DNA of 64,000 nt, from positions 1-64,000 of the forward strand of contig JARKPB010000010.1 in assembly GCA_029975475.1 (NCBI GenBank), written 5' to 3'. Below, piece after piece: positions 4,695 to 50,368 of the stretch (position 1 is its first letter; every line of letters starts with the position of its first letter). The notes below the pieces were generated by a model. It saw nothing but the letters and a program-made list of their open reading frames with translations. It was not told the DNA's origin and ran no database searches. This DNA is from Anaerolineaceae bacterium. GTDB lineage: Bacteria > Chloroflexota > Anaerolineae > Anaerolineales > Anaerolineaceae. The translations under genes were made by a program, and so were the position numbers.

Positions 4695-6335
4695 TTACTC
4701 GCGGCTGAGGGTGACAAAGACCATCGGCCTGCGGTGGGTTTCCGAATAGATATAGTTGCTGATCGCCTGTTCCAGGTCTTTCCGCGCCGAACCGTTGGCG
4801 CGGGCAACCGTGTCGTTGATCTTCTTGCGCATGCCTTCCATCAAGGTGTCAGCATCCCCGGCGACCATAAACCCGCGGGTGATCAATTCCGGTTCGCGGC
4901 TGACGCGCCCGGTGGCGTAATCCAGGGGCACATTCACCATCACCACCCCGTCGCGGGCCAGCTCTTCGCGTTCGCGCATTACCGCCGGGCCGACATCGCC
5001 CACCCCGGAGCCGTCCACAAAGACATAGCTGTTCGGAACGCGCTCCGCCAGGCGCATCTCGCCGTCCAGGAACTCGACCACCTGGCCGTTCTGGATAACC
5101 TGAATGCGGTCTTCGCGGATGCCAACCTGTTTCGCCAGCGAAGCGTGCTGCTTCAACTGGCGCAGCTCGCCGTGAATGGGGATAAAGAACTTCGGGCGGG
5201 TCAGATGAAAGAGCAGTTTCATCTCTTCCTGGCTGGCATGCCCGGAGACGTGCACGGGAGCGATGGCTTCATAGACCACATCCGCGCCGCGTTCAAACAA
5301 ACGGTTGATGGTGCGGTAGACATTTTCTTCATTGCCGGGGATGGGGTGAGAAGAGAGCACAACCGTGTCGCCGGTCTTGATGTCAAACTGGCGGTAGGCG
5401 CCAATCGAAAGGCGTCCAAGGATCGAGGTTGGCTCGCCCTGAGAGCCAGTGCACATGATGACCACATCCCTGTCTTTCATGTTGAGGGCTTCATCCAGGC
5501 TGACCTGCAGCCCATCCGGCAAATCCAGGTAGCCCAGCTTGACAGCGATTTTGACATTATCCACCATGCTTGGGCCGGCGAAAGCCAGTTTGCGCCCGTG
5601 GCGGCTGGCAGCGTTGGCCACCTGCTGCATGCGCGAAATCAACGAGGCAAAGGAAGCGATGATGATGCGGCCGGATGCCCGGGTAAAGACATCTTCTAAA
5701 GCGGCATCCACCACCCGCTCGGACGGGGTCCAACCCGCTCGTTCCGCGTTGGTCGAATCGGAGAGCAGCGCGAGGACGCCGCGGTCGGCGAACTCAGCCA
5801 GCATGCCGTAATCGCTCGGCCAACCGTCCACGGGGGTGTGGTCAAATTTGTAATCGCCCGAATGAACGATCAGTCCCTGGGGCGTTTCAATTCCCAGGCC
5901 GACGCCGTCCGGGATGGAATGGCAAACGTGGAAGAAATCCACTTTAAACGGTCCGATCTCCACACGGTCGCCAGCCTGGACGGTGTGCAGCGTGGCGCGC
6001 TGCAGGACGCCATGGCGGGCCAGTTTCACTTCCAGCAGCCCGCGTGTCAGCGGGGTGGCGTAGATCGGCGCGTTAACCTGTTCGAGCAAATGACGGATCG
6101 CGCCGGTGTGATCTTCATGACCGTGGGTGATGACAATCCCGCGCACTTTTTCGCGGCGGTCAATTAAATACTGCATATCCGGGATGATGTAATCAATTCC
6201 CAGCATGTCATTTTCCGGGAACATCAGGCCCGAATCAACGACCAGAATGTCGTCTCCGTATTCGTAGACCATCATGTTCCGGCCAACTTCGCCCAGACCG
6301 CCCAGCGGGACGATCCTTAAGGGTGTTTTATTCAT
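4695..6335 (-). CDS. rnj: Ribonuclease J
   Basis: A 546-residue metallo-beta-lactamase / beta-CASP RNase that matures and degrades RNA with endo- and 5' exonuclease activity. Residues 71-76 are the metal motif HGHEDH, with VHSGDYKFDHTPVDG further on. The beta-CASP part includes the LLSDSTNAERAG segment and the SSHPIPGNE and HVSGHAS motifs, followed by a short C-terminal domain. Length matches RNase J1/J2. It has its own strong promoter (6508-6536) and a leader of about 165 nt containing a GC-rich hairpin. As the single RNase J seen here, it is presumably a main RNA-decay enzyme. Confidence 0.96.
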   Translation of the reverse strand: MNKTPLRIVPLGGLGEVGRNMMVYEYGDDILVVDSGLMFPENDMLGIDYIIPDMQYLIDRREKVRGIVITHGHEDHTGAIRHLLEQVNAPIYATPLTRGLLEVKLARHGVLQRATLHTVQAGDRVEIGPFKVDFFHVCHSIPDGVGLGIETPQGLIVHSGDYKFDHTPVDGWPSDYGMLAEFADRGVLALLSDSTNAERAGWTPSERVVDAALEDVFTRASGRIIIASFASLISRMQQVANAASRHGRKLAFAGPSMVDNVKIAVKLGYLDLPDGLQVSLDEALNMKDRDVVIMCTGSQGEPTSILGRLSIGAYRQFDIKTGDTVVLSSHPIPGNEENVYRTINRLFERGADVVYEAIAPVHVSGHASQEEMKLLFHLTRPKFFIPIHGELRQLKQHASLAKQVGIREDRIQVIQNGQVVEFLDGEMRLAERVPNSYVFVDGSGVGDVGPAVMREREELARDGVVMVNVPLDYATGRVSREPELITRGFMVAGDADTLMEGMRKKINDTVARANGSARKDLEQAISNYIYSETHRRPMVFVTLSRE

Positions 6336-6507: not shown

Positions 6508-6536
6508 ATTCTAACACAGGCGGGGATATTTGTCAA
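6508..6536 (-). promoter_or_regulatory. Consensus promoter of rnj
   Basis: On the minus strand a perfect TTGACA (6536-6531), a 17-bp spacer and TAGAAT (6513-6508). It lies between the end of the btpA-like gene and rnj, making rnj independent of the upstream operon and giving a leader of about 165 nt. Confidence 0.75.
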
Positions 6537-6600: not shown

Positions 6601-7437
6601 TTAACGGGCCGCCTTTCGAGCGGCCTGAACCAGAGCGCTGACCCGCTCTGAATCCACCGGCGCCTGGATCCTGCCGTCGCGTTTGAAGAATGAGCCGACA
6701 ATAGCCCCATCACAAATTGACAGGATCTGGGGGACGCTGTGCGGGGTGACCCCGCTGCCGGCCAGGAGCGGCACCTCCAGGCTGGCACGCACCTGGCGCA
6801 GGTCTTCGATTGAAGCCGACTTTCCCGTGCCAGTCCCCGTGACCACGACCGCGTCCGCCAGACCGCGGTTCTGCGCATCGGCGGCCGATTCACCGAGCGG
6901 GCGCGGCCACATCGCCTGGGTATTTTTCCCCTGCACATCCGCCAGCACCGCCACATCCTCGGCGTACAGGGCGGTTCGCTCGCGCTGGAGCTGGGCAGCG
7001 CAGGCGGGGATCAGCCCGGTTTCCGCGTAAGCCGGATCAATATACACCTCGGCCCGGATAAAAGCGGCTCCAACCGCCCGGGCGAGGGCCAGTTCAGAAA
7101 CATAGTCGTTATAGAGAATATTGACCCCCACCGGGATGGACGCGCTGGTTACCACCGCACCGGCGACCGCCGCCATCGCGGCCAGGGTGACCGCCGGCAC
7201 GCTGGCAGGCAGATAGGGTAAATCCCAGAAATTTTCAACAATCACGCCGTCCACCCCGCCGCGCTGAAGCGCATTCAGTTCGCTGAGCGCGAACTTTACC
7301 AGCGCGCTAAAGCGAGCGTCTTTTCCGGCCGGTGTGCCCGGCAGGGGAGGCAGATGGATCATCCCGATAATGGGTTTTTTGGAAGAAAAAACATCCTGAA
7401 AACGCGTGCGCCGGCTGGCGCTGATCGGCTCAAGCAT
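6601..7437 (-). CDS. BtpA/SgcQ family TIM-barrel protein
   Basis: A 278-residue protein of the BtpA/SgcQ family, a TIM-barrel group whose reaction is unknown. Cyanobacterial BtpA affects photosystem I and SgcQ sits in a sugar operon. Recognisable parts are IGMIHLPPLPGTP near 23-35, GGVDGVIVENFWDLPY near 59-74, GVNILYNDY near 104 and the C-terminal phosphate-site-like LAGSGVTPHSV and GAIVGSFFKRDGR. AGGAG lies six bases before the ATG. It overlaps the PurL-like gene by 8 bp and is the last gene of the nine-gene operon. A phosphorylated sugar or nucleotide substrate is likely by context, but this is inference. Confidence 0.88.
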   Translation of the reverse strand: MLEPISASRRTRFQDVFSSKKPIIGMIHLPPLPGTPAGKDARFSALVKFALSELNALQRGGVDGVIVENFWDLPYLPASVPAVTLAAMAAVAGAVVTSASIPVGVNILYNDYVSELALARAVGAAFIRAEVYIDPAYAETGLIPACAAQLQRERTALYAEDVAVLADVQGKNTQAMWPRPLGESAADAQNRGLADAVVVTGTGTGKSASIEDLRQVRASLEVPLLAGSGVTPHSVPQILSICDGAIVGSFFKRDGRIQAPVDSERVSALVQAARKAAR

Positions 7438-9028
7438 CTTTCACTCCTACCACGCCAACAAATAACTGCCCCAAAATCGGGCGGTCATCGGTCTCGTTAA
7501 ACAACGAGACATTTCCGCCGACCACAGGGATTTGATTTTCCCGGCAGGCATCCGAAAGACCGCCCAGCGCGGCGCTAATTTGCCAGCTGATCTCGGGTCT
7601 TTCCGGGCTGCCGAAATTGAGCCCGTCCGTCAGACCCAGCGGGCGCGCACCCTGCGCCCTTAAGCGGTCGCAGCACTCCTGAACCAATCGAAAGGCGCAC
7701 TGGTACGGATCGCGCTCGATTTCCGCCCCATTGCAGGCGGTCTGCAGCAGGACCGCTTTTTTCAGCTCCGGCAGGTCAATTTGCGCGCCTCCGGCTGACG
7801 GGAAAACAGCCGGGCCAATCTCCAGGCCACTGGCTTCTCCCCTCCCCAGGCTGACTTCAACCCGGTTGAAAGCGGATTCTTGGAGCAGTGGAGATTCCTG
7901 CTGATGAGTAAAATACGCCGGATGGTCGTTGATCGCAATCCGCGCAAAGCCGTCCACCACCAGGTCTACGGGCAAATCCGCCGCGGTCTGGCCGCCTTCC
8001 AGCAGGACGGCGCGGCCGCCGGGAGTAATTTCACCGATCAGCGCAGCCTGCAAGCGCGGATATTCCTTTAGAAGCGCCATTGCCGCTTCAATCTGATCCG
8101 GACGGACGGAGACCAGCATCCGTTCCTGAGTTTCTGAGAGCATTAGCGCGTAAGGACTCATCCTGTCCGCCGATGGAACGGCTGAGAGATCCAAACGCAG
8201 CCCGGCGCCAGCTTTATGAGTCATTTCAAAGGATGAACAGGTCAGGCCAGCCGCACCCATGTCTTGAATTCCCACCAGCAGCCCAGATTCAATCAGCCGC
8301 AGGGTCGCGAGCATCAACTCCAGCCCGGCCAGCGGATCGCCGGCCGGAGGATGGGCTTCAGTGTGTTCATCCATGCCTTTCGAGGCAAAAGCGGCTCCGT
8401 CCACGCCGTGGGGACCGGTGGGCAGGCCGTAATACAGCAGGCGGTTGCCCGGCTCTCCGGCGCTGCTGCGGGTCAACCGTCCGCGCCTTGCCAGGCCCAG
8501 CACAAGCACGTTGACCAGAGGGTTGGTCTGATAAGAAGGATGACAGCGCCAGTCCAGGCCGAGGTCAGCGATGCCGCAGGCGCGGGCGTACTCCGCGGCG
8601 CCGCGGCGAATTTCTTCAACCATGCGCCGGGTATCTTCAGCGGCTGGATCCCCGCTGCGCAGGAGAGTCAGTACCCCGATCGGGCGGGCGCCCATGGCCA
8701 TCACATCGCGCACCAGCCCGCCAACACCGGTGGCCGCGCCGTCATAAGGAGCGACGAAGCTGGGATGGTTGTGAGATTCAACCTTAAAGACCACCGCCCA
8801 ATCAGGGTCAATTAAAACCGCGCCGGCATTTTCACCCGGTCCCTGCGCCAGCCAGGGGGCGCTCACCGGGAATTGTCGGAATAGCGCGCGGGTATGTTTG
8901 TAGGAACAGTGTTCAGACCACATGGCAGAGAAAATACCCATTTCCAGGTGGTTCGGTTCGCGTCCCAGGCCCTGCAGGATGAGCGCATACTCCTCGGCGC
9001 TCAGGTGATAGTCTTTTGGATCGGGCAT
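7430..9028 (-). CDS. PurL-like FGAM synthase paralog lacking the last domain
   Basis: A 532-residue relative of phosphoribosylformylglycinamidine synthase II (usual small PurL about 740). The first half is well kept: MWSEHCSYKHTR near 35, QGPGENAGAV near 62, VESHNHPSFVAPYDGAATG near 82-101 and GIQDMGAAGLT near 258. The second AIRS N-domain is weaker, and the protein stops right after GGNVSLFNET, about 200 residues early, so the final AIRS_C domain is missing. The end overlaps the next gene by 8 bp with normal spacing, so this looks designed rather than frameshifted. No PurQ or PurS lies nearby. A GGAGG sits eight bases before the ATG. Normal purine synthesis is not the obvious role. Confidence 0.88.
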   Translation of the reverse strand: MPDPKDYHLSAEEYALILQGLGREPNHLEMGIFSAMWSEHCSYKHTRALFRQFPVSAPWLAQGPGENAGAVLIDPDWAVVFKVESHNHPSFVAPYDGAATGVGGLVRDVMAMGARPIGVLTLLRSGDPAAEDTRRMVEEIRRGAAEYARACGIADLGLDWRCHPSYQTNPLVNVLVLGLARRGRLTRSSAGEPGNRLLYYGLPTGPHGVDGAAFASKGMDEHTEAHPPAGDPLAGLELMLATLRLIESGLLVGIQDMGAAGLTCSSFEMTHKAGAGLRLDLSAVPSADRMSPYALMLSETQERMLVSVRPDQIEAAMALLKEYPRLQAALIGEITPGGRAVLLEGGQTAADLPVDLVVDGFARIAINDHPAYFTHQQESPLLQESAFNRVEVSLGRGEASGLEIGPAVFPSAGGAQIDLPELKKAVLLQTACNGAEIERDPYQCAFRLVQECCDRLRAQGARPLGLTDGLNFGSPERPEISWQISAALGGLSDACRENQIPVVGGNVSLFNETDDRPILGQLFVGVVGVKDA

Positions 9029-9055
9029 GTGTCAAACCTCCAAATCAGCTTTTTT

Positions 9056-9982
9056 TCAGGCACTCATCTTCTTGATAAATTCCTGAACGGCAGCGGCAGA
9101 TTCCGGCGCGCCGCTGGTCGCTCCCATCTTTAACGAGGCCATCGCGCCAACCGCATTGGCAAAAGCGAAAGCCCCGGTTTCATCAAAGTTATTCAGAACG
9201 GCGTAGATCAAACCGGCGTTGAACGCGTCGCCCGCGCCGGTCGTATCCAGGGGATGAATCGGAAATGCCGGTGAAAACAACGGCGCTTTGCCCGCTTGAT
9301 AGCGGACGCATCCCCGCGCGCCTTCTTTTACCACCACCCGGCCGACCCCCTGTTGAAGCAGATATTCGACCCGTTCGGGGCGGGAACCGCCGGGAGTAAG
9401 CATCTCAAATTCAACCGCATTGACCAGAAGAATATCCGTGAGCGCGATCAGTTCCGGCAGGCGGTCTGGATGCGTCTCAATTAAGATCGAGCCGGGATCC
9501 AGGCTGGCGGGGATTCCCAGCCGGCGGGCGCGCGCCAACAAATCCAGCCCGACTTCAAACACCGGCCCGTTCAAATGCAGCCAGCGGCAGTCCCGCAGAA
9601 GTGAATCCGGCACATCCGCGCCGCGCAGGGCCAGGTTCGCCCCGCGGTAACAGAACAGCCGCCGCTCGCCACCCGGGGTCACCACCCCGAAGACCATCCC
9701 GCTGGATTGACCGTCAGCCGTCTTTATAAAAGTGTCTGCCACACCACGGCGGCGCAGCAGCCCGCGCAGCTGCTCTCCGGCCGCGTCGCTGCCCAGCGCG
9801 CTGAAGAAAGCCACCTTCAGCCCCAGCCCGACCGCAGCCACAGCGGCGTTGGCGCCAGAGCCGCCCAGAAAGCCGTTCAATTCATCCATCTCAACTTCCT
9901 GATCCGCCGCGGGGAAAAACGGGCAGCGGCCCAGGTAATCCAGATTGATATCCCCGATGATCAAGACATCCTGATCGTGCAT
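9056..9982 (-). CDS. PfkB-family carbohydrate/nucleoside kinase
   Basis: A 308-residue ribokinase-family (PfkB) enzyme that phosphorylates a sugar or nucleoside hydroxyl with ATP. It has DINLDYLG near 11-18, the glycine-rich GGSGANAA at 40-47 that closes on the substrate, and the C-terminal signature DTTGAGDAFNAG near 252-263 with the catalytic Asp. The ATG at 9982 is preferred; a GTG six bases upstream is possible. A 10-bp hairpin precedes it, separating it from the solute-binding protein gene. In this operon it probably traps the imported compound as a phosphate (inference). Confidence 0.92.
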   Translation of the reverse strand: MHDQDVLIIGDINLDYLGRCPFFPAADQEVEMDELNGFLGGSGANAAVAAVGLGLKVAFFSALGSDAAGEQLRGLLRRRGVADTFIKTADGQSSGMVFGVVTPGGERRLFCYRGANLALRGADVPDSLLRDCRWLHLNGPVFEVGLDLLARARRLGIPASLDPGSILIETHPDRLPELIALTDILLVNAVEFEMLTPGGSRPERVEYLLQQGVGRVVVKEGARGCVRYQAGKAPLFSPAFPIHPLDTTGAGDAFNAGLIYAVLNNFDETGAFAFANAVGAMASLKMGATSGAPESAAAVQEFIKKMSA

Positions 9983-10000
9983 CTTCACCGCCTTAAGAGC

Positions 10001-10024
10001 GGCGGGAGGGTTCCCCCTCCCGCC
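10001..10024 (-). promoter_or_regulatory. Intercistronic hairpin after the solute-binding protein gene
   Basis: A perfect 10-bp stem (GGCGGGAGGG / CCCTCCCGCC) with a 4-nt loop, between the binding-protein stop and the kinase start. There is no T tract, so it is more likely an mRNA-stabilising structure raising the binding protein relative to downstream genes, as seen in many ABC operons, than a full terminator. Confidence 0.55.
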
Positions 10025-10037
10025 CACTGTCATCCGA

Positions 10038-11030
10038 TTACTTTGCCGGGAGATAATCGTTGGTGAACAGGTCTTCGACGGGAACGACCTTGTCAATTAA
10101 TTGAATATCCAGCATGAACTTCTGGACTTCTTCCCAGAGTTTACCGTCCTGCAGGCCGTAGACATCCGTCTTCAAGACTGGCAGGGTCGCCTCCCAGGAG
10201 GCTTTGGCGTATTCCTTGCTGAGCGCATCCGGATAAAGTTTCTCAAAGATCGCGAGGGCTTCATCCGGGTGGTCAACCGAGTACTGCAAACCTTTCATGG
10301 TCGCGGCGATAAACTTTTTAACGGTTTCGGGATTCTTCGCCAGATAATCATCCGAAGTGGCAAAGACATACACATACACATCCGGAACGCCAAAATCGCG
10401 CGCCATCAGGATAATGGTTTCCATCCCGCCGGTGATAAGCGCTGAGGTCTGTTCAGCATTGGTAATGCCGCCGATGGCGTCTACCTGCCTGGCGAGCAGG
10501 AGGGGCACCGTATCCGAGGTAGCCGGGAGCACTTTGACCGACTCGGGGTTCAGGCCGGCATAGGTCATCATCGCCTTGAACGAAGATGTGTCCCAGGTGT
10601 TGTCATACAGGCTGATGGTCTTGATGTCCTTCAGCTCGGTGATCCCGCTGTCTTTGGGGATAATAATGCCCCAGTTGTTGTAGCGAAAAACCGCCGCCAG
10701 GCTCTTAATCGGCACGCCCGCCGCGCGGCCCAGAATCACATCCAGCTGGGTGGTGTAAGCGAAATCCGCCTTGCCGGTGGCCACGTATTTGGGCGGGTCA
10801 GCCACAGTGGCCGGGACGACCGTGGTAACCTTCAAACCAACTTCCTGATAAAAGCCTTTTTCCTGGGCTACCAGCCAGGGGATCCAGCCAACCCAGGGAG
10901 TGGGCCAGTCGCCCACAATCGTGACTTCCTGCAGTTCACCCGCCGCGGGCGCCTTTGCGCTGCCGCCGCAGGCTGTCAGCAGCAGAGAAAGGACCACCAG
11001 GAAACTCAGAACGAACAGACTCTTTTTCAT
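10038..11030 (-). CDS. ABC importer solute-binding lipoprotein (NMT1/THI5-like)
   Basis: A 330-residue extracytoplasmic binding protein. The signal peptide ends in a lipobox LTAC with Cys21, so it is membrane-anchored. The body fits the NMT1/THI5/SsuA-like type: WPTPWVGWIPWLVAQEKGFYQEVGL near 42-66, DFAYTTQLDVILGRAAGVPIK near 89-109, and a hinge before VDAIGGITNAEQ. Relatives bind thiamine-pyrimidine precursors, riboflavin, nitrate or sulfonates. The ligand here is unknown; the purine-like neighbours favour a nucleobase, nucleoside or pyrimidine-type compound (inference). AGGAG precedes the ATG. It is followed by permease and ATPase partners upstream in the same operon. Confidence 0.93.
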   Translation of the reverse strand: MKKSLFVLSFLVVLSLLLTACGGSAKAPAAGELQEVTIVGDWPTPWVGWIPWLVAQEKGFYQEVGLKVTTVVPATVADPPKYVATGKADFAYTTQLDVILGRAAGVPIKSLAAVFRYNNWGIIIPKDSGITELKDIKTISLYDNTWDTSSFKAMMTYAGLNPESVKVLPATSDTVPLLLARQVDAIGGITNAEQTSALITGGMETIILMARDFGVPDVYVYVFATSDDYLAKNPETVKKFIAATMKGLQYSVDHPDEALAIFEKLYPDALSKEYAKASWEATLPVLKTDVYGLQDGKLWEEVQKFMLDIQLIDKVVPVEDLFTNDYLPAK

Positions 11031-11066
11031 ATTCTCCTCTCATTTCGTGTAAAAAACTACCAGGAT

Positions 11067-11873
11067 TTAGGACCGGCTCAGATAGGATTGGATACTGCGC
11101 TTGACCTTACCTCCTTTTTGCCAGGGGATCAGCAGATTTTCAATCGCCTGAGCGATGAAGAACAAAATGATCCCCATGATTGAAGTCACGAAGATCGCCG
11201 CGAACATCTCCGGCGTGCGAATTTGCGCGTTGGTCTGGAGGATATACGCGCCCAGGCCGCGGTCGGAACCGATCCACTCCGCCACCACGGCGCCGATCAC
11301 TGAGAAGGTTACCGCCACCTTGGAAGCCGAGGTGATAAACGGCAGCGCGTTGGGAAGCTGCACCTTGCGAAAGATCTGCCAGCGCGAAGCGCCCATCGAG
11401 CGCAGCAAAGTGATCAGGTCAGGGTCGCAGGCGATCAACCCGTCAAAGGTGTTTACCGTCAGCGGGAAGAAGACAATCAACGCCACCACGATAATTTTTG
11501 GCCAGATGTTATATCCCAGCCAGATCACCAGGATGGGTCCCAGCGCCACCACAGGCACCGTCTGGGAAATCACAATGATCGGGTTCAATGCCCGGCGCAG
11601 GGTGGTTGAGAAGAACATCACCAGCGCCAGGCCGAACCCAACAATGAAGCCGACCAGGAAACCGAGCAGCACTTCCTCGAGGGTGATGCCCATATGCCGC
11701 CAGAGGATCGCGCGCTTCAGAATCGCGACTGTCACAATGCGGGACGGGCGCGGCAGCAAGTATTCCGGGATATTGAACCAGAGCGAAGCCAGTTCCCAGG
11801 CGGCGATCAGGCCGGCCAGCAAGAGCAGCGGCGGGAGGATGGTTTTCCATTTGCTTTCAGCGGTTGTTGCCAT
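11067..11873 (-). CDS. ABC importer permease (SsuC/ThiX type)
   Basis: A 268-residue membrane permease with about six transmembrane segments, beginning at PPLLLLAGLIAAWELAS near 15-31. The cytoplasmic EAA-type loop that contacts the ATPase is visible in LITLLRSMGASRWQIFRKVQLPNALPFI near 152-179. It pairs with the adjacent binding protein and ATPase. Eight bases separate it from the ATPase gene upstream and 36 from the binding-protein gene downstream. Confidence 0.93.
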   Translation of the reverse strand: MATTAESKWKTILPPLLLLAGLIAAWELASLWFNIPEYLLPRPSRIVTVAILKRAILWRHMGITLEEVLLGFLVGFIVGFGLALVMFFSTTLRRALNPIIVISQTVPVVALGPILVIWLGYNIWPKIIVVALIVFFPLTVNTFDGLIACDPDLITLLRSMGASRWQIFRKVQLPNALPFITSASKVAVTFSVIGAVVAEWIGSDRGLGAYILQTNAQIRTPEMFAAIFVTSIMGIILFFIAQAIENLLIPWQKGGKVKRSIQSYLSRS

Positions 11874-11881
11874 GCGCCCTC

Positions 11882-12724
11882 CTATTTTCCCATACCGTTG
11901 GGGGATTCCGTCTGACCACTATCTGATTCACGCCGCAGCAGGGCAAATAACTCGGTGCGCAGTTTTATGATTTCAACATTCCCCATCATTTCATAACTGC
12001 GTTTCTCGGGTAATGGCACCTGGATCGTCTGGATGATGCGGCTGGGACGGTGGCTCAGCACCAGCACTTTTTCGGCCAAAAAGAGGGACTCATCCACATC
12101 ATGGGTAATAAAGATGATGGTTTTTTTACTGTCGCGCCAGACTTCATGCAGCCATTCCTGCATGGAAAGGCGGGTCTGGGCATCCAGGGCGCCAAAAGGC
12201 TCGTCCAACAGCATCACTTCGTTATCAAGCATCATGGTGCGTAAAAAAGCCGCGCGCTGGCGCATGCCGCCGGACAGGTATTTCGGGTAATAGGCTTCAA
12301 AGCCTTCCAGTCCATAGCGCCTCATCAGTTCGCGCGCCCGGGCTTCGCTTTTGGCGCGATCCCGGCCCTGTATTTCCGTTCCAAGAAGGATGTTCTCCAG
12401 GACGGATCGCCAGGGGAGCAAGAGATCTTTCTGAAACATGTACCCGACCAGCCCGGTTTTACCGTTGATCAGGCGGTCGCCGAGATAGATGTTGCCCGCA
12501 GTGGGCGGCAGCAGCCCGGCAATGGCATTAAAGAGTGTGCTCTTGCCGCAGCCGCTCGGCCCGAGAATACAGGTGAAACTGCCTTCATCAGCGTCAAAGC
12601 TGATATCCTCCAGGACATCCACCCGTTTGTTTTCATCCATCTTGAACGAAATCGAAAGATTCTCCAGGCGGATCTTGGCATTGCGCCGGGCAGCCAGGGA
12701 AAAGTCAGAGTTGAGTACGCTCAT
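11882..12724 (-). CDS. ABC importer ATPase (SsuB/ThiZ type)
   Basis: A 280-residue ATPase. Walker A GPSGCGKST is at 55-63, the Q-loop in GYMFQKDLLLPW near 95, the signature LSGGMRQR near 150, Walker B VMLLDEP near 171 and the switch His in ITHDVDES near 206. Short N- and C-terminal extensions surround a standard domain. It follows the peptidase gene by three bases and powers uptake by the neighbouring permease and binding protein. Confidence 0.95.
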   Translation of the reverse strand: MSVLNSDFSLAARRNAKIRLENLSISFKMDENKRVDVLEDISFDADEGSFTCILGPSGCGKSTLFNAIAGLLPPTAGNIYLGDRLINGKTGLVGYMFQKDLLLPWRSVLENILLGTEIQGRDRAKSEARARELMRRYGLEGFEAYYPKYLSGGMRQRAAFLRTMMLDNEVMLLDEPFGALDAQTRLSMQEWLHEVWRDSKKTIIFITHDVDESLFLAEKVLVLSHRPSRIIQTIQVPLPEKRSYEMMGNVEIIKLRTELFALLRRESDSGQTESPNGMGK

Positions 12725-12727
12725 GGT

Positions 12728-13786
12728 TTATGCTCGCTCCGGGTTAAGCGCCAGGGCTTCCAGCAGGCGCAACGTGTTTTCTGCATCCGTAAAATCGGCG
12801 GTTTCCACCGGCGCATGATGATAACGGATTGGCAGCGAGATCGCGGCGCTGCGGATGCCGCCCGCCGCATAGGGCAAGGGATTCATCGCCGTGCTGATGC
12901 CAACCACAACCTCGTCCTGCAGCGGTAAATGATTGGCTTCCGCCAGCGACTGGATATGACCGGCCAGCCTGGCATCCGGAACATAGGACTGCCCTTTCCC
13001 GCGCACGGTATCCAGCCATTTCAGGGCCGGCCCGGCGCCCAGCTGGATGCTGGACTGATCGCCGTCTAAATCCGGGCTGTCAAAAGTCAGGGTGCCGTCC
13101 AGACCGACCAGCAGATCCGGGCGAACGCGTTCTACCACCGGCCAACCGCCGAGCTGCATGGTCTCTTCCTGAACCACAAACGCCAGGTGGAGCGAGCAAG
13201 CCGGTTCGCGGTCGGCGAACAAGCGCGCGAGTTGGATCAACAAAGCGCAGCCCAGCCGGTCATCCAGAGTTTTGCCGCTGAAACGGCTGGTGCCCAACCG
13301 CTGCAGCGGACAGGCCCAGGTGAGGCCGTCGCCAACCCGCACACCCATATTTAAGACTTCTGCCTGCGAGGACGCGCCAACATCCACATACAGGTCTTTT
13401 AATTCATAAAACTCTTTCCGATCCAAGTGGAACGGCAGGATCCCCATAACCGCCGGCAGCGGCCCGCCGCGCGTCCAGAGGCGCACATGCGACCCAGGCA
13501 GCGCCATCACATTCATCCCGCCGACGCGCTCAACTTTTAAGAATCCTTCCGGGGTGATGCGGCGGACAATCAGCCCGACTTCATCCATGTGAACCATGAA
13601 CATCAATTTTGGGCCCTTGCCGCTCCGCACGGCGCACAGGTTGCCAAGCGGATCGCGCTGAATCTGCCACTTTTCCGCCGGCAGGGCGGATGATATGGCA
13701 TCTGCCACCATGGCTTCCCGGCCAGGCAGACCATACGCCTGGGTGAGCGTTTCCAGCAATGCCAGATCCAAAGCATACGAACTCAT
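12728..13786 (-). CDS. M42-family metallo-aminopeptidase
   Basis: A 352-residue M42 (glutamyl aminopeptidase / endoglucanase M) zinc or cobalt peptidase, usually a cytosolic dodecamer. Ligand motifs are present: HMDEVG at 66-71, GKTLDDRLGCA near 168-178, QEET near 204, an acidic GLDGTLTFDSPD near 224, and the C-terminal PIRYHHAPVE. The usual QEEVGxxG sequence is changed to QEETMQLGG. It overlaps the PurD-like gene by 4 bp (ATGA). In this operon it could split an amide or peptide bond in the imported compound, as the deformylase YlmB does in pyrimidine salvage; this is inference. Confidence 0.9.
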   Translation of the reverse strand: MSSYALDLALLETLTQAYGLPGREAMVADAISSALPAEKWQIQRDPLGNLCAVRSGKGPKLMFMVHMDEVGLIVRRITPEGFLKVERVGGMNVMALPGSHVRLWTRGGPLPAVMGILPFHLDRKEFYELKDLYVDVGASSQAEVLNMGVRVGDGLTWACPLQRLGTSRFSGKTLDDRLGCALLIQLARLFADREPACSLHLAFVVQEETMQLGGWPVVERVRPDLLVGLDGTLTFDSPDLDGDQSSIQLGAGPALKWLDTVRGKGQSYVPDARLAGHIQSLAEANHLPLQDEVVVGISTAMNPLPYAAGGIRSAAISLPIRYHHAPVETADFTDAENTLRLLEALALNPERA

Positions 13787-15108
13787 GATGACCTGCCTCC
13801 CCTCAAACGTTCCATCTGGGCAGTGCGATCAGCCAGAACGCCGGCTGAACCCACATCCTTGCGGTGGCGCAACTCTGGCGGTTCAAAGCGGGCCAGGAAA
13901 TCTTCCATCCGCGCGCTGATGGAAGCCGGATCAGGCCCGCTGCCGTACAATGCCAGCGCGCGCGACCCCAGGGTGCGCCAGACGTCCCCGTCTTTTTCCA
14001 CAGAAGCCGGCAGGAGGGTGAAGCCGGCTGCCTCTACCGCGGTTTGATCAAACCGGAAAGAGATTCCAACCGGGCTTTTTTCAGGATACTCCTGCGGCAC
14101 CAGGTATTTCACCACGGTCGCGCACGGCTGAAAAACGGGCGCGGGCAGCCTGCCAGAAGCCACCTCGGCCAGCAAGGCAGGCGCGTTTGACTCCAGCAGC
14201 AGCATCTCGTTAATTCCTTCGGGGTCGCCCAGGCGGACATTAAATTCAATCACCCGCACGCCTTCCGCGGTGGCCATAAACTGTCCGTAAAGAAAACCGC
14301 GGTAAGCGGTCCCGCTTTCTTCCTCAAGCGCCGCGACCACATCGGCGAGGATTTGATCCGCCGCACGCAAATCGGCGGGCTGCAGGAATGGAAGACTGCC
14401 GTCCGCGCAGGTGTAGGCGCCCATTCCGCCGGTCATTCCGCCGGTATCCCCGTCGCGGGCATACTTGAAATCCTGCGCGACCGGCATGCCGTAAATTTTT
14501 CCATCCGCTACCAGCGCGATCCGCGAAAATTCCTGCCCGATCAAGCGCTCTTCCAAAAGCACCTGACCGGAACGGTCGAGCTCCTGCCGCACCTCCTCAA
14601 GCGCGGCCGCAAGACCGTCCAGGTGAACGCCCATGACTTTAACGCCCTTCCCGCCGGTCAGACCGACCGGTTTAATCGCCGCCTGGCCCACCCGGCGCAG
14701 GAAGGTCTCGGCAGAAGGTAGATCAGCGGCCAGGGCCCACTGAGGCGATGCGCCGGGCACACGGCTCTGCAGCAAATCGCGCATAAACGCTTTGCTGCCC
14801 TCCAACTGAGCCTGATACCGGGTAGGTCCAATCGCCGCGATTCCGACAGCGCGCAGAAGATCAACCACGCCAGCCATTAGCGGCGCTTCCGGCCCAACCA
14901 CCACCAGGTCTGCCCCGGCCTGCTGAAAAAAAGACGCCATCGCCCGGGCATCGCCGGCTGAACCTACGGTTATATGCCCGGTCAGAGCGGTCAACCCCGG
15001 GTTGGCGTGGCCAGCCCAGACGGACAAAGGTGCGCCCGGCTCTCCGCGCAGGAGGGCGCGGGCGATCGCCACCTCCCGCCCGCCGCTGCCGATTAAACCA
15101 ATCTTCAT
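13783..15108 (-). CDS. PurD-like ATP-grasp ligase, divergent
   Basis: A 441-residue relative of phosphoribosylamine-glycine ligase. N domain: MKIGLIGSGGREVAIARAL, where PurD almost always has GREHA, so the His is Val. VVVGPEAPLMAGVVDLL near 76 and LEGSKAFMRDLL near 107 are typical. The ATP-grasp loop reads KPVGLTGGKGV instead of KADGLAAGKGV, and QDHKR is QDFKY. The metal site EFNVRLGDPE near 290 is kept. Substrate-side positions are therefore altered while nucleotide and metal sites remain. The ATG at 15108 is chosen because PurD-like proteins begin there; a TTG at 15120 overlaps the gntR stop. It is the second gene of the operon. Confidence 0.88.
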   Translation of the reverse strand: MKIGLIGSGGREVAIARALLRGEPGAPLSVWAGHANPGLTALTGHITVGSAGDARAMASFFQQAGADLVVVGPEAPLMAGVVDLLRAVGIAAIGPTRYQAQLEGSKAFMRDLLQSRVPGASPQWALAADLPSAETFLRRVGQAAIKPVGLTGGKGVKVMGVHLDGLAAALEEVRQELDRSGQVLLEERLIGQEFSRIALVADGKIYGMPVAQDFKYARDGDTGGMTGGMGAYTCADGSLPFLQPADLRAADQILADVVAALEEESGTAYRGFLYGQFMATAEGVRVIEFNVRLGDPEGINEMLLLESNAPALLAEVASGRLPAPVFQPCATVVKYLVPQEYPEKSPVGISFRFDQTAVEAAGFTLLPASVEKDGDVWRTLGSRALALYGSGPDPASISARMEDFLARFEPPELRHRKDVGSAGVLADRTAQMERLRGGRSS

Positions 15109-15116
15109 TTTTCGTT

Positions 15117-15887
15117 TCAAACTCCCTGTCCCGTTAAAGTCCCGGCAGATCGTTCGCGGCGCGAGGATTGCACGGTGAATTCGTAAAGGTCGCTGCGCCA
15201 GAGAATACGTTTGTATTCAATTGGCGTGCCGTCCTCCAAATATGCGGTTCCTTCGGCCGCCAGCAGCGGGGAACCGGTTTTAATCTGCAGCAAGGCCGCC
15301 TCTTCGCGGCTGGCGATGACCGGTTTGATGGTTTGTTCCTGCCAGGAGATGCTCAAGCCGTAATCCTCTTCGATGACAGAAAAAAGCGACTCGCGCGAAA
15401 AATCCCGGCGGTCAAGACCCGGGCATAAACGTTCGGGGATAAAAGACACCTGATGAGCCATCGGCTGACCGTCTGCCAGGCGCAGGCGCTCCAGGCGAAA
15501 GATATTTTCTTCCGGCAGCAGGCGCAGTTTTTCCACCAGCAGCTCGGAGGGGGATTCCTGACGCAGGGAGATGACAGCAGAACTGGGGCGCATGCCTTTG
15601 AGGCGCATTTCTTCTGAGAAACTGGTCAGGCGCTGCAGCCCGTAGCGCACTTTACGGTCAGCGACAAAGGTGCCCCGGCCTTGAACGCGGGTCACCAGGC
15701 CGCAGTGCGCCAGTTCCTCCACCGCCTGTTGAGCCGTGTTGCGGCTGACCTGAAATTGGACCATGATCATGCGTTCGGACAGGATGGGGTCGCCCGGTTT
15801 CAGGCGGCCCGATTCGATCTGTTCGCGCAGGAAATCGCTGATCTGCAGATAGAGGGGTTTAAAACTTGCGCGCGCCAAAACACCCAT
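15117..15887 (-). CDS. GntR/HutC-family transcriptional regulator
   Basis: A 256-residue repressor with an N-terminal winged helix (about 10-75: PLYLQISDFLREQIESGRLKPGDPILSER, then SRNTAQQAVEELAHCGLVTRVQGRGTFV) and a C-terminal UTRA ligand domain (about 95-240: VEKLRLLPEENIFRLERLRLADGQPMA). Such proteins sense small molecules: urocanate for HutC, phospho-sugars for others. It is the first gene of a nine-gene operon. Its promoter carries a 27-bp inverted repeat (15899-15925), so self-repression and control of the whole operon are likely. A GGAGG lies at the right distance from the ATG. Confidence 0.94.
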   Translation of the reverse strand: MGVLARASFKPLYLQISDFLREQIESGRLKPGDPILSERMIMVQFQVSRNTAQQAVEELAHCGLVTRVQGRGTFVADRKVRYGLQRLTSFSEEMRLKGMRPSSAVISLRQESPSELLVEKLRLLPEENIFRLERLRLADGQPMAHQVSFIPERLCPGLDRRDFSRESLFSVIEEDYGLSISWQEQTIKPVIASREEAALLQIKTGSPLLAAEGTAYLEDGTPIEYKRILWRSDLYEFTVQSSRRERSAGTLTGQGV

Positions 15888-15898
15888 ACCATCCTCCA

Positions 15899-15925
15899 GT
15901 TAACAGGTTGACCCAACCAGTTAAC
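15899..15925 (-). promoter_or_regulatory. Inverted-repeat operator of the GntR operon
   Basis: Arms GTTAACAGGTTG and CAACCAGTTAAC with a 3-bp centre match at 11 of 12 positions. The repeat lies between the -10 box and the gntR ribosome site, over the transcription start, where repressor binding would block transcription. GTTAAC ends fit the GT-TA-AC theme of GntR sites. Confidence 0.65.
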
Positions 15926-15928
15926 CAT

Positions 15929-15957
15929 ATTGTACGGATGTTTTCATAAAAAGCCAA
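15929..15957 (-). promoter_or_regulatory. Promoter of the nine-gene GntR operon
   Basis: On the minus strand TTGGCT (15957-15952), a 17-bp spacer and TACAAT (15934-15929). The operator follows directly. No comparable promoter was seen between the nine genes, whose gaps are at most 55 bp. Confidence 0.6.
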
Positions 15958-16051: not shown

Positions 16052-17911
16052 TTATTCCAGACCGCTCTTGAGCGCCAGCGCCAGGTCTTCGGTGATGCCT
16101 GGAACGCGGGTCAGCTCCTCCAGCGAAGCCTCCAGAATGGCGTCAATCGAACCAAAACGGGTCAACAGCGCTTTGCGCCGGTTGGGACCGATGCCGGGAA
16201 TGGCATCCAGGCGCGAAGCCAGACCGATCTGGCTGCGGCGTTTGCGGTGGGCGGTGATGGCAAAGCGATGGGCTTCGTCGCGGATGCGCTGAATGAGGTA
16301 CAGCCCCTGGGAATGGCGCGGGAGGAGCAGCGGCTGGTCCCGTCCGGGCAGAAACAACTCTTCCTGCTGTTTGGCCAGCCCGACCACCGGCACCTGACCG
16401 CTCAGGCCGAATTCTTCCAGCACCTTTACCGCCCGGCCGAGCTGCCCTTTCCCGCCGTCCACCATTAATAAATCCGGAAGAAAGGCAAAGGAAGGATCCA
16501 CTTTCTTGCCCGGGCCCTTCTCTTCCTGAGCGGCGCGCCAGCGCTTAAAACGCCGGGTCAGCACTTCTTCCATACTGGCAAAATCATCCGGCCCCTGCAC
16601 GGTCTGGATATTAAAATGGCGGTACAGTTTTTTACTGGGCGTGCCCTGTTCGAAGACGACCATACTGCCGACCGAAGCGGTGCCCTGGGTATTGGAGATG
16701 TCGTAACACTCAATCCGGTTTGGCGCTCCGGGCAGCTGCAGCGCAGCCTGCAATTCCGCCAGCGCTTCGGTCTGGCGTCCCTTATCCGCCTGCCACTGAG
16801 CCCGCAGGGCACGCAGGGTTTCAGCGGCGTTCTCAGCGGCCATCCCGACCAGGGCTTCCTGCGGGGCGCCCTTGCGCGGCACGCTGAGCTGCACTTTCTG
16901 GCAGCGCTGGCTGTGCAGCCATTCGCGGATGACCCTGGCTTCTTCGATCTGATGGGGAAGCAGGACCTCGGGCGGAACGTATGCGGCTTCCGCGTAGAAT
17001 TGTTTGACAAACTGGGCGATCACTTCGCTGTCGCTGGCCTCATCGGTGCCTTCAAGGATAAAGTATTCCCGGCCGATCAACTTTCCAGAGCGAACGAAGA
17101 ATATTTGCACACACGCTTCCCCGTCTTCGCGCGCCATGGCGATTACATCCGAATCCAGCTCTTCCGTGCTGATCACCTTCTGCTTTTCAACCACGCGGTC
17201 AATGGCCTGGATCTGATCCCGCAGGGCAGCGGCGCGCTCAAAACGCAGGTCTTCCGCTGCCTGTTCCATCTCGCCGCGCAGGCGGTTGATAATCGGCGCG
17301 GTGCGCCCTTCAAGGAACTGGCAAAGATCATCCACCATCTGACGGTAAGCCGCTTTATCGATCGCGCCAATACACGGGCCGGAACACAGACGAATATCGT
17401 AAAACAGGCAGGCGCGGGTATCTTTTCCGGTGATCACCCGATCGCAGGTCAGATACGGGAAGATGCGCCGCAGCACATCCAGAGTCTGGTGCACCGCCCA
17501 GGCGGACGTATACGGGCCGAAGTAGCGCGAGCCGTCCTGAACCATACTGCGGGTAACGGTGACAGATGGAAACTCGTTTGCCCAGTGAACTTTGATATAA
17601 GGGTAGCGTTTATCGTCTTTCAGCCGGATATTAAAGCGCGGGCGGTGTTTCTTGATCAGATTCATTTCCAGGATCAGCGCTTCAAGCTCTGACCCGACCA
17701 CAATCCACTCAATGGTTTCAATACTCCGCACCAACTGACGGGTTTTGCCATCCAGACGGCTGCTCTGGAAGTAAGAGGATACCCGATTTTTAAGGTTGAC
17801 GGCCTTGCCGACGTAAATCACCTCGCCGGCGGAATTTTTCATGATATAGCAGCCCGGCCGGGTGGGCAGGGTGGTCAAAATACCTTTCAAATGGTCGCTG
17901 ATTTCGATCAT
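16052..17911 (-). CDS. uvrC: UvrABC excinuclease subunit C
   Basis: A 619-residue nucleotide-excision-repair nuclease that cuts both sides of a lesion. The order is: GIY-YIG domain (PGCYIMKNSAGEVIYVGKAVNLKNRV near 19-44), UVR motif for UvrB contact (about 205-240), RNase H-like domain with IECYDISNTQGTASVGSMVVF near 385-405, and tandem HhH at the C-terminus (IPGIGPNRRKALL, VPGITEDLA). The ATG at 17911 gives the family's N-terminus; an in-frame extension upstream is not UvrC-like. It lies 19 bp after the helicase-loader gene. Confidence 0.96.
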   Translation of the reverse strand: MIEISDHLKGILTTLPTRPGCYIMKNSAGEVIYVGKAVNLKNRVSSYFQSSRLDGKTRQLVRSIETIEWIVVGSELEALILEMNLIKKHRPRFNIRLKDDKRYPYIKVHWANEFPSVTVTRSMVQDGSRYFGPYTSAWAVHQTLDVLRRIFPYLTCDRVITGKDTRACLFYDIRLCSGPCIGAIDKAAYRQMVDDLCQFLEGRTAPIINRLRGEMEQAAEDLRFERAAALRDQIQAIDRVVEKQKVISTEELDSDVIAMAREDGEACVQIFFVRSGKLIGREYFILEGTDEASDSEVIAQFVKQFYAEAAYVPPEVLLPHQIEEARVIREWLHSQRCQKVQLSVPRKGAPQEALVGMAAENAAETLRALRAQWQADKGRQTEALAELQAALQLPGAPNRIECYDISNTQGTASVGSMVVFEQGTPSKKLYRHFNIQTVQGPDDFASMEEVLTRRFKRWRAAQEEKGPGKKVDPSFAFLPDLLMVDGGKGQLGRAVKVLEEFGLSGQVPVVGLAKQQEELFLPGRDQPLLLPRHSQGLYLIQRIRDEAHRFAITAHRKRRSQIGLASRLDAIPGIGPNRRKALLTRFGSIDAILEASLEELTRVPGITEDLALALKSGLE

Positions 17912-17930
17912 ATAGACGGGATTACGCGGT

Positions 17931-19343
17931 TCAACTGCCGCGCGGGCGGCGGGATTTTTCCGAGCGCGCCGCGCCGGCGCGGTAGGGCGGCACATCCAGC
18001 AAATAGATCCTGCACATGCGTTCATCCAGCATGCGCGAGCGGATGCGCGCATCCAGTTCTTCCAGCGCTGCGCTGGTGGTGATGACCATGGGCAGGCGCG
18101 CCATATAGCGGTAATTGAAAATCTGATTCAGCTTTTCGCGCGCCCAGGGAGTCGCGCTTTGCGTCCCCAGATCGTCCAGAATCAGCAGCGGGACAGTGCG
18201 CACGCGCTCAAAGCGTTCATCGAAGGATACCGTGCTGCTCGGGCTGAAAGTCGCGCGCAAGTGATCCAACAAATCCGGCACCGAAATCATCACCGGCTCT
18301 TCGCCCATGCCTTTGCGGTAATTCCCGATCGCCGCAGCCAGATGGGTTTTGCCAGATCCATAATCACCCAGCAGCACCAGCCAGCCGTACGGCTCCTCGG
18401 CGAACTGCTGGGCGGCATGAAAGGCTTTTTCCAGGCTGGCGCGTTCTTCGGCCTTTAACTTCTCGGGTTCGCGCAGGCTAAAATTACCGAAAGTGCGGTC
18501 AGCCATCAATGAAAGGGCGTAAATCAACGGATCGTGATTTTCCTGAACCGGGTTGCGAAAATCCGGCGCGGTGATCTTGACCACGGTTACCAAATCCGGG
18601 TCCAACAGGCGCGAGCGCACGCGGTCTTCGAGATCAGCCATGGTGAAGTTGGTGGTGATCACGGTCGGCAGCCGCCGCACATACCGGTGATCCATGATCT
18701 GAAAGAGTTTTTCCTGCGCCCAGGCTGTGGTGTTCTGCGTACCGAGGTCGTCCAGCACCAGCAAGGGCGCGTTGCGAATTTCCTCAAAGCGCTGTTCATA
18801 ACTCTCGTCAACACCGCTGTAGCTGGCGCGCAGCCAGTCGAGCAGATCGGGCACGGTGAGGAACAGCGCTTTTCCGCCAGCGGCAACCACCGCGTTGGCG
18901 ATGGCGGCAGCCAGATGGGTCTTTCCGCACCCGTATGTGCCGGTGAGCAGCAGCCAACCGTGGGGGTGATCGGCAAAGGTCTGACTCTGACTGAGGGCGT
19001 AGCGCAGGGAAGCCACCGCCTCATCACCCAGCCCCAACCGTCCCGCGGGATTGAAGCGTTCAAACGTTAGATTGGACAGCGCTTCGAGGTTGCTGTAGCG
19101 CAGCAAACTACTCTGAGCGGCCTGGAGGACAACCCGCCGGCGGCATTCGCACACCTGGACGCGGCCAAAATTCGGGTCGCCAACCGGTAAATCTTCGCGT
19201 ACGTACCCGATGCCGCCGCAAATTGGGCACTCAGGATCGCCTGGATAATTTGCCCGGCGCGGGTTAGCGCTGGATAAGGTCTCCAAATTCTCCCTGGGTG
19301 TACTTTCGGCGACCTTTTTTAGCGTTTCGCTGATCGGTTTCAT
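17931..19343 (-). CDS. Helicase loader with two tandem DnaC/DnaI-type AAA+ domains
   Basis: A 470-residue protein. An N-terminal zinc-finger-like part has Cys39, Cys42, Cys65 and Cys67, as in DnaI-type loaders. Two homologous ATPase domains follow. The first has Walker A GTYGCGKT at 135-142, Walker B LLVLDDLG at 194-201, VITTN near 228 and RVRSRLLD near 241. The second has GDYGSGKT at 326-333, LLILDDLG at 386-393, VITTS near 420 and RIRSRMLD near 433. Normal DnaC/DnaI loaders have one domain and about 245-310 residues. It follows dnaB and a dnaD-like gene, so loading of DnaB at origins or forks is the likely role. The ATG at 19343 has an AGAGGA site; a GTG one codon earlier is possible. The start overlaps the dnaD-like gene by 80 bp. 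Confidence 0.9.
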   Translation of the reverse strand: MKPISETLKKVAESTPRENLETLSSANPRRANYPGDPECPICGGIGYVREDLPVGDPNFGRVQVCECRRRVVLQAAQSSLLRYSNLEALSNLTFERFNPAGRLGLGDEAVASLRYALSQSQTFADHPHGWLLLTGTYGCGKTHLAAAIANAVVAAGGKALFLTVPDLLDWLRASYSGVDESYEQRFEEIRNAPLLVLDDLGTQNTTAWAQEKLFQIMDHRYVRRLPTVITTNFTMADLEDRVRSRLLDPDLVTVVKITAPDFRNPVQENHDPLIYALSLMADRTFGNFSLREPEKLKAEERASLEKAFHAAQQFAEEPYGWLVLLGDYGSGKTHLAAAIGNYRKGMGEEPVMISVPDLLDHLRATFSPSSTVSFDERFERVRTVPLLILDDLGTQSATPWAREKLNQIFNYRYMARLPMVITTSAALEELDARIRSRMLDERMCRIYLLDVPPYRAGAARSEKSRRPRGS

Positions 19344-19938
19344 CACGTCCTCTTTCCTGCCAGGCTTTCAAGACTGCGTCCACATAGCGCCACGAACGGG
19401 CATTATTTTCCACCGCGGCGCGAAAAGCATCCGCAATCACCTGCAGCGGGTAGGTCTTTTCGGCGTCTTCCAGCGCTTCCGCAATCAGCGGGGTAAGCGG
19501 GCCGATATTGGCTTCATACAGCGCATAGATATTGGGCCGCTCCGGGCGAAGTGGAGGCGCGGGTGTGCCAGAAGAAGGATCCCATGCGCCAGCCTGCAGG
19601 GCTTTTAGTCCCGCCCGTCCGCGCGGCGTGTTAAGAAATAACACCTGACCGGCCTGGCTCGGAGCAGCCAGGAGAGTACCGCGCGCCAGGGCTTTCTCCA
19701 GCGCGGAGTTAAATGCCGCCGCTCCGCCGAGGGCTGCCAGCAGCGCCGTGTCAGCGCGCAAATCGTCCTCCAGCAGGCAGCGGAGACTGCCTTCCATCTG
19801 GTTAATTGCCCAGAAACAATACAGGCTCAGTTTTAACTCCCCAAGATCATCTATGAGGGGGAGCAAACCGGTAAAAAACTCATCCGGCAGCGGCGTTAAG
19901 CGCGTCTTCCTGTCGGAAAAACCAGTGAAAGCAGACAT
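19264..19938 (-). CDS. DnaD-domain primosome protein
   Basis: A 224-residue protein with the DnaB_2/DnaD C-terminal domain at about 133-200: IYALYEANIGPLTPLIAEAL, a middle helix, then VENNARSWRYVDAVLKAWQERG, the YxxxI/W-type DNA-binding signature. The N-terminal half is a winged-helix-like DnaD N domain by length and pattern. The C-terminus is basic. Its ATG overlaps the dnaB stop by one base (TGATG) and its 3' end overlaps the loader gene. Firmicute DnaD works with DnaB-like and DnaI proteins to restart and initiate replication, which fits the neighbours. Confidence 0.85.
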   Translation of the reverse strand: MSAFTGFSDRKTRLTPLPDEFFTGLLPLIDDLGELKLSLYCFWAINQMEGSLRCLLEDDLRADTALLAALGGAAAFNSALEKALARGTLLAAPSQAGQVLFLNTPRGRAGLKALQAGAWDPSSGTPAPPLRPERPNIYALYEANIGPLTPLIAEALEDAEKTYPLQVIADAFRAAVENNARSWRYVDAVLKAWQERGRDETDQRNAKKGRRKYTQGEFGDLIQR

Positions 19939-50296: not shown

Positions 50297-50368
50297 TGGG
50301 CCCGGCTGGGTTCGAACCAGCGACCAAGCGGTTATGAGCCGCGCGCTCTGCCACTGAGCTACGGGCCC
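50297..50368 (-). tRNA. tRNA with CAT anticodon (Ile2 likely, Met possible)
   Basis: A 72-nt cloverleaf with acceptor arms GGGCCCG and CGGGCCC, anticodon arm GCGG-CTCATAA-CCGC and T arm GCTGG/CCAGC. The CAT anticodon fits elongator Met or, after lysidine modification, Ile2. The variable and T-arm segment TTGGTCGCTGGTTC is the same as I remember for E. coli ileX, so Ile2 is favoured. CCA is not encoded. Confidence 0.88.

Follow-up and report, generated by a model that had tools for sequence, protein, structure and literature searches.

Our analysis concerns a stretch of 64,000 nucleotides from an Anaerolineaceae bacterium (assembly GCA_029975475.1, contig JARKPB010000010.1, positions 1 to 64,000), called the window below, and in it an operon-like run of nine tightly packed genes that extends from 15887 to 6601 on the minus strand. 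The run combines a GntR/HutC-type regulator, an ATP-binding cassette (ABC) importer, a PfkB-family kinase, an M42 metallopeptidase and a BtpA/SgcQ-family protein with two proteins that resemble the purine-synthesis enzymes PurD and PurL (Table 1). Its junctions consist of three overlaps (4, 4 and 8 base pairs (bp)) and five gaps of 3-55 bp if the kinase gene is taken to start at 9982; alternative in-frame starts lie at 10033 and 10096. All nine genes of the families that an earlier note on this DNA had named are present, on one strand and with overlaps or gaps of at most 55 bp, as it had said. The gene set, an operator-like dyad, the conservation of the set, the missing purine genes and the place of the PurD-like protein outside the ordinary PurD clade are directly supported by the sequence, and the operon points to an undescribed route of salvage or breakdown.

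Table 1. Genes and putative control elements of the nine-gene run, in order of transcription.
Feature	Position	Strand	Basis or remark
Promoter-like site TTGGCT-17-TACAAT	15929-15957	-	9 of 12 consensus positions
Operator-like dyad of 27 bp, GTTAACtGGTTGggtCAACCtGTTAAC	15899-15925	-	starts four bases past the -10 hexamer
GntR/HutC-type regulator with UTRA domain	15117-15887	-	PF00392, PF07702
PurD-like ATP-grasp protein	13783-15120	-	Pfam/NCBIfam family matches; separate in the tree from the phylum's ordinary PurDs
M42 metallopeptidase	12728-13786	-	family match
ABC importer, ATPase	11882-12724	-	best NCBIfam score taurine-type, below cut-off
ABC importer, permease	11067-11873	-	family matches
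NMT1/THI5-type binding protein	10038-11030	-	PF09084; nearest solved sequences 4nmy, 3ix1
PfkB-family kinase	9056-9982 (ATG)	-	ribokinase/ribose-1-phosphate-kinase-like, below equivalog cut-offs
PurL-like protein, 532 residues	7430-9028	-	linker-A1-B1-A2; last AIRS_C domain missing
BtpA/SgcQ-family protein, predicted TIM barrel	6601-7437	-	family match and fold model

Searching gene neighbourhoods, the check that the earlier note had proposed, recovered all nine genes in identical order in Ornatilinea apprima P3M-1, where PurL, M42, PurD and BtpA are 51-63% identical to those of the window. In Chloroflexi AS06, the genes purD-M42-btpA precede a PF02608 binding-protein gene located where the contig ends. 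In genome G548, gntR-pfkB-btpA-purD-M42 is accompanied by a PF02608 importer with two permeases, and a LarE-family sulfur transferase (locus L115, 2074-2928; 334 bits against a cut-off of 150) lies about 75 bp behind that PnrA-type importer on the same strand. The order in genome G252 is pfkB-btpA-gntR-purD-M42, with a PF02608-type importer, an ADP-ribosylglycohydrolase and then a second PfkB and a PF04227 gene; the nearest solved relatives of its binding protein are the TmpC- and Bmp-type lipoproteins, which are nucleoside receptors. Genome G168 carries gntR-purD and then a gene of the serine-dehydratase-alpha family at the contig end. Across these six PurD-like loci, including that of the window, M42 lies beside PurD in five, BtpA, GntR and some part of an importer are each present in five, PfkB in four, a PF02608 (PnrA-like) binding protein in three (AS06, G548 and G252) and the PurL-like gene in two. 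Levilinea sp. D180 (G068) has gntR-purL-btpA-pfkB with no PurD at the locus; its set runs divergently from the genes of an energy-coupling factor (ECF)-type importer, which are joined by another PfkB (PF00294) and by a short BtpA-like gene scoring below cut-off, and an inosine-uridine (IU) nucleoside hydrolase lies two genes from the set on the opposite strand.

The two halves of the proposed control region, one promoter with an inverted-repeat operator, fared differently. The -35/-10 match at 15957-15929 is not above chance, since three such sites were found in the region against 3.1 expected. The dyad that follows it (15925-15899) is paired at 11 of 13 positions, which only one of 400 dinucleotide shuffles equalled, but it is weaker with 10-bp arms (8 of 10 paired, equalled by 46 of 400 shuffles). 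Its core, TTAACTGGTTGGGTCAACC, recurs at 18 of 19 bases in O. apprima as TTAACTGGATGGGTCAACC, directly after that strain's own -10-like hexamer (the hexamer was read by eye). When the same dyad test was applied to the promoters of O. apprima, Levilinea and G168, 144-400 of 400 shuffles were equally good, and for the G252 promoter 18 of 400 were (13-bp arms; 53 of 400 with 10-bp arms), so that the level of the window's dyad was not reached in any of the four. We consider the operator better supported than the promoter match, but not beyond doubt, and the layout of regulator gene and dyad suggests that the operon would be self-repressed.

A tree of 47 PurD sequences (40 ordinary PurDs of the phylum, the six PurD-like proteins and an ambiguous protein from genome G660) separates the 40 ordinary proteins from the other seven with support of 100/100, while the six PurD-like proteins alone are grouped at 98/78. 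This places the PurD-like protein outside the ordinary PurD clade of the phylum; the exact edge of its group is unsure because of the 98/78 support and because G660 and G168 are long branches. The G660 protein (locus L149, 5145-6404), intermediate between the two kinds of PurD, lies behind ATP-synthase-like open reading frames (ORFs; read by eye) on a contig of 6.4 kb and is cut by the contig end; it was the finding in one of 393 genomes in the phylum of the Oscillospiraceae locus L063 and, being ambiguous, was left out of the counts. In the phylum to which the Thermotogales locus L055 belongs, 103 genomes gave no match of any kind to the PurD-like protein. With a four-row profile, three of 396 genomes of the class, including that of the window, scored 502-753 bits, the other listed matches reaching at most 287, and a single-sequence search of 121 genomes of the phylum gave G548 at 319 bits with the runner-up at 171. 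A plasmid-borne set was also considered and rejected: a tblastn search of 72,556 plasmid records returned 61 matches, none with at least 60% identity, and the 15 listed are 33-37% identical, five being annotated purD (one also over xseA) and ten having no listed feature; we take these matches for ordinary PurD.

For a residue comparison, four of the six PurD-like rows (without G252 and G168) were set against 23 ordinary PurDs, in which 89 positions are conserved at 90% or more; 45 of these are unchanged, 21 are changed in all four rows and 23 in some. Five changes (M229 replacing N within the NTGGMG loop, F281, K338, Y339 and S386) are common to all six rows, and K150, E190, E292, N294, R296 and D299, which we take to be ATP and metal ligands, are invariant in the six-row alignment. 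The Pfam GARS_C score of 29.9 lies below the cut-off of 34.8. Extra PurD-like proteins have been discussed in haloarchaea, where Hlac_1553 and rrnAC0307 are judged not to be glycinamide ribonucleotide (GAR) synthetases in a passage of PMC3261824, which describes them as without GARS_N and Mg-binding sites; the window's protein differs from them in having a GARS_N match and in retaining the GDPE motif. The GDPEx[EQIM] motif quoted in that paper is formally satisfied by its GDPEGI, and the motif is thus no discriminator of the two kinds of PurD.

The PurL-like protein comprises the linker, A1, B1 and A2 parts only, with a single AIRS_C stretch, the second being missing, and it scores below the TIGR01736 cut-off of 525.75 both as a protein (507 bits) and in the genome scan (404 bits). 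We rejected the idea of a frameshifted or assembly-cut PurL because the copies of the window, O. apprima and Levilinea have an identical end point and btpA overlaps or directly follows. The WSEHC and ESHNHPS stretches, presumably the site of the catalytic histidines, are kept. The 19 ordinary PurLs of the phylum (the canonical PurL L088 was left out of this comparison) have 210 conserved positions. All three rows agree with them at 105 and differ at 52, some rows differ at 32, and the remaining 21 fall in the missing end. The protein is rare, exceeding 600 bits in three of 147 genomes of the family, with the next at 149, and among 396 genomes of the class only the window's own copy was found (E 1e-60). 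Structure prediction from the three rows gave a mean predicted local distance difference test (pLDDT) score of 54.7 and was not used.

The genome of the window (G000; 3.15 Mb, 98.9% complete) gives these two proteins no evident place in ordinary purine synthesis. The operon's PurD is its only GARS_A protein over cut-off and the operon's PurL its only TIGR01736 match (E 1e-50), yet we found no PurF over cut-off there (13 of 14 controls were over it), no match to PurH (12 of 14 controls positive) and none to PurC, which was likewise without a match in G068, G101 and G638 (14 of 14 controls positive). The other AIRS-family proteins of the genome, SelD, HypE and one that is below every family cut-off and best HypE-like, gave no purM model hit at E 1e-10. 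Its partial PurF matches cover mostly the first 200 model positions, in frames of more than 600 residues, and are taken for GlmS-type proteins. No PurF over cut-off was found in G068, G101, G638, G548 or G252 either, which leaves it missing from six of the seven genomes with the system and from five of the six with a PurD-like gene (G000 and four of the other five). The seventh genome is G168, in which contig 276 carries PurF adjacent to an ordinary PurD, the PurD-like gene being located elsewhere. G548 has no TIGR01736 match, and no PurQ or PurS is present among the nine operon genes of the window. The carrier bacteria appear unable to make purines de novo, and we rejected ordinary purine synthesis as the role of the operon; the coexistence in G168 of the PurD-like gene with a separate, PurF-linked PurD, together with the missing purine genes elsewhere, argues for a separate function of the PurD-like protein. 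The earlier proposal that the altered PurD and PurL do not serve the ordinary pathway is thereby upheld: it would have been contradicted by sole copies sustaining normal purine synthesis, and only the first half of that combination was found.

It follows that little probability attaches to the view that these are relic or detached ordinary purine genes whose products still make GAR and formylglycinamidine ribonucleotide (FGAM). The PurD-like protein does pass the purD cut-off, and in both proteins numerous canonical positions are unchanged in all rows compared (45 of 89 in PurD and 105 of 210 in PurL, including ESHNHPS); compared with PurD and small PurL of the de novo pathway, the domain make-up is the same bar the missing PurL domain. 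This view is nevertheless largely contradicted already by the purine genes not found, by the separate clade and changed loops of the PurD-like protein, by its coexistence with an ordinary PurD in G168 and by a PurL without its last AIRS_C domain.

With 236 bits the BtpA protein passes the TIGR00259 (BtpA/SgcQ) cut-off of 153, and with 213.6 bits it fails the cut-off of 400 of NF045918, the photosystem I biogenesis BtpA. Its fold model (23 rows, pLDDT 93) is a triosephosphate isomerase (TIM) barrel whose top matches include thiamin monophosphate (TMP) synthase, 2-keto-3-deoxy-6-phosphogalactonate (KDPGal) aldolase, HisA/HisF, TrpF, TrpA, ribulose-phosphate epimerase and PdxS, enzymes of phosphorylated substrates, and the positions invariant in the 23 rows include H28, E68, K171, T200 and T204. 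The model fits an enzyme acting on the product of the PfkB kinase. On plasmids, a PfkB kinase adjoins BtpA in all six loci opened, from 205 records with a match. Three of these plasmid loci, from Rhizobium, Pantoea and Sagittula (L141, L142 and L143), have BtpA beside or near TenA, PfkB and Zn-hydrolase or M20 genes, and in Sagittula a ureidoglycine aminohydrolase is also near; BtpA may be part of a broader heterocycle-riboside theme.

In Brevibacillus reuszeri (L051; L052-L054 are similar), BtpA and PfkB are accompanied by an ABC importer of the ribose type and by M20 peptidases (PF01546 confirmed in L051). PurD- and PurL-like genes were not found in the examined stretch there, nor in that of a Caldilineaceae locus in which BtpA and PfkB accompany a ribose-type importer. 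Such loci, and the best scores of the window's kinase, which are to ribokinase and ribose-1-phosphate kinase (both below cut-offs), would suit an operon for a sugar-amino-acid or peptide conjugate, not a nucleoside, comparable to the sgc set of Escherichia coli, in which a sugar phosphate would be released by kinase, peptidase and BtpA while the PurD-like protein performs a side reaction. We regard this as unlikely, given that three of the six PurD-like loci encode PnrA-like binding proteins and that an ADP-ribosylglycohydrolase gene immediately follows one importer; it also leaves the recruitment of PurD and PurL unexplained.

The importer of the window suggests a different substrate again. 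At E 1e-5, its binding protein has six solved relatives, namely 4nmy, presumably a thiamin-bound structure, the formylaminopyrimidine (FAMP) binder 3ix1 and yeast-type THI5/THI13, and like the ThiXYZ-type importers it belongs to the NMT1/THI5 family and is served by one permease and one ATPase. PurD and PurL make precursors of aminoimidazole ribonucleotide (AIR), from which hydroxymethylpyrimidine (HMP) derives, and TenA-family genes adjoin or lie near BtpA in three of the six plasmid loci. It is therefore conceivable that the operon salvages a pyrimidine or imidazole precursor related to thiamin or AIR, although we think this improbable. PurD and PurL by themselves could not lead to AIR, as there is no PurM hit and no PurF over cut-off; unlike a ThiXYZ system, the window has no thiamin pyrophosphate (TPP) riboswitch over the gathering score, none of the nine operon genes has a ThiD-, ThiE- or TenA-named best hit, and the relatives carry an importer of another type.

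Our preferred reading, which we hold tentatively and at a little less than an even chance, is that this is an inducible operon for the uptake and processing of a nucleoside-like, ribosylated compound in which an amine or amide links the aglycone to ribose. Breakdown is more likely than salvage as its role. The substrate had been proposed to be nucleoside- or imidazole-like; the first half is supported by the BMP/PnrA proteins, PF04227, ADP-ribosylglycohydrolase and nucleoside hydrolase of the relatives, while the imidazole half finds no support, and the proposed order of import, unmasking, phosphorylation and then ATP-grasp plus AIRS-type chemistry is likewise conjectural. The importer would bring the compound into the cell, where the PfkB kinase would phosphorylate the 5'-OH of its ribose and the M42 peptidase would cut amide bonds, trimming or releasing amino-acid or acyl parts. 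For the latter, H66, D68, D175, E207, E208, D230 and H324, which we assume to be metal and catalytic residues, are invariant in the five operon copies. The PurD-like ATP-grasp enzyme would make or break an amide on phosphoribosylamine, with the PurL-like protein, in strains that carry it, performing ATP-dependent chemistry on that amide, and BtpA would isomerise or cleave the phosphoribosyl part and deliver ribose phosphate to central metabolism. Repression by the GntR/HutC protein would act through the dyad and be lifted when an intermediate of the pathway occupies the UTRA domain of this regulator.

Several observations weigh against this preferred reading. We infer the direction of the route, every enzymatic step and the substrate, the last as a predicted class only. 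The window's own importer is of the NMT1 type (PF09084) and not of the BMP/PnrA type (PF02608), and its apparent kinship to thiamin-pyrimidine binders pulls the opposite way. The PurD-like protein scores 313.1 bits against a TIGR00877 purD equivalog cut-off of 288, so glycine and phosphoribosylamine may still be its substrates, and the nearest solved relatives of the M42 protein are plain aminopeptidases. The PurL-like gene, which had been cast as an essential part, is optional, being absent from four of the six PurD-like loci and found once at a locus that has no PurD. The barrel matches of BtpA are nearly tied (Z 18.7-20.9) and name no single reaction, and its link with PfkB is not general, since in a scan of 30 BtpA loci, three of them with PurD- or PurL-like genes, PfkB adjoins in eight and occurs anywhere in the examined stretch in 12. 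The second PfkB and the PF04227 gene of G252 follow the ADP-ribosylglycohydrolase at a distance of about 150-250 bp and could form a unit of their own. The AS06 and G168 loci are cut by contig ends, and the completeness of G638 is not known.

A more specific proposal can be made from the chemistry of the two purine-type enzymes. The substrates of PurD and PurL share an R5P-NH-CO-R unit (R5P, ribose 5-phosphate), that is, an N-acyl-phosphoribosylamine. From this shared unit, the 5'-phosphate that PfkB would add, the amide cutting by M42 and the amino-acid-dehydratase-family gene of G168, we guess the compound to be an N-ribosyl amide or an amino-acid conjugate. The operon might then encode a new catabolic pathway for N-ribosyl amides, such as glycinamide-riboside-like compounds or ribosylated amino acids from the turnover of ADP-ribosylated proteins, in which import and phosphorylation yield an N-acyl-phosphoribosylamine, the PurD-type ligase runs in reverse to split the amide while making ATP, and BtpA handles the ribose phosphate. 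As it stands this is speculative and rather improbable.

Among known systems, pseudouridine catabolism by PsuK-PsuG comes to mind, in which a PfkB kinase makes the 5'-phosphate and a second enzyme acts on the phosphorylated ribose end. The PfkB kinase is common to both, and a PF04227 gene, of the pseudouridine-phosphate-glycosidase type, lies with a PfkB near the G252 copy. The window operon itself is without PF04227, for which BtpA would be the replacement by our inference only, and its PurD-like, PurL-like and M42 proteins have no counterpart in the pseudouridine route. The undescribed sgc set of Escherichia coli also joins a BtpA (SgcQ), an M42 peptidase (SgcX) and an importer, here of the phosphotransferase system (PTS) type; it is not known to include a PfkB, PurD or PurL, unlike the window with its ABC importer, PfkB, PurD-like and PurL-like proteins. 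The recruited purine enzymes and the PF04227 (Indigoidine_A-family) gene near one copy could alternatively belong to a gene cluster that makes a natural product of the modified-nucleoside or C-nucleoside kind, which we consider very unlikely: an importer and a UTRA regulator suit uptake, and no exporter or tailoring gene was noticed in the loci read, where most flanking ORFs were not run against the family library. The literature searched held no description of the nine-gene set among the matches listed.

The run is bordered upstream by a UvrC-like ORF (16052-18052, read by eye) and downstream by an RNase J gene (4695-6335). The operon probably ends at btpA, because RNase J has a promoter-like site of its own at 6536 (11 of 12 consensus positions). 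Elsewhere in the window, a 471-residue protein encoded on the minus strand at 17931-19346 has two tandem DnaC/DnaI/IstB-type domains, with two matched stretches for several loader families. Three consecutive transfer RNA genes lie at 1263-1612 on the minus strand, and a fourth at 50297-50368.

The identification of a PurD subfamily that passes the purD model in genomes where, in five of six cases, no PurF over cut-off is there to feed it means that automatic annotation of purine synthesis can mislead. The presence of the full set in one operon of a named strain, O. apprima P3M-1, makes both the substrate and the role of BtpA/SgcQ directly testable. If the breakdown of N-ribosyl amides proved true, purine-synthesis chemistry would be run in reverse by organisms that do not themselves synthesize purines, and the widespread BtpA family would gain an enzymatic role.

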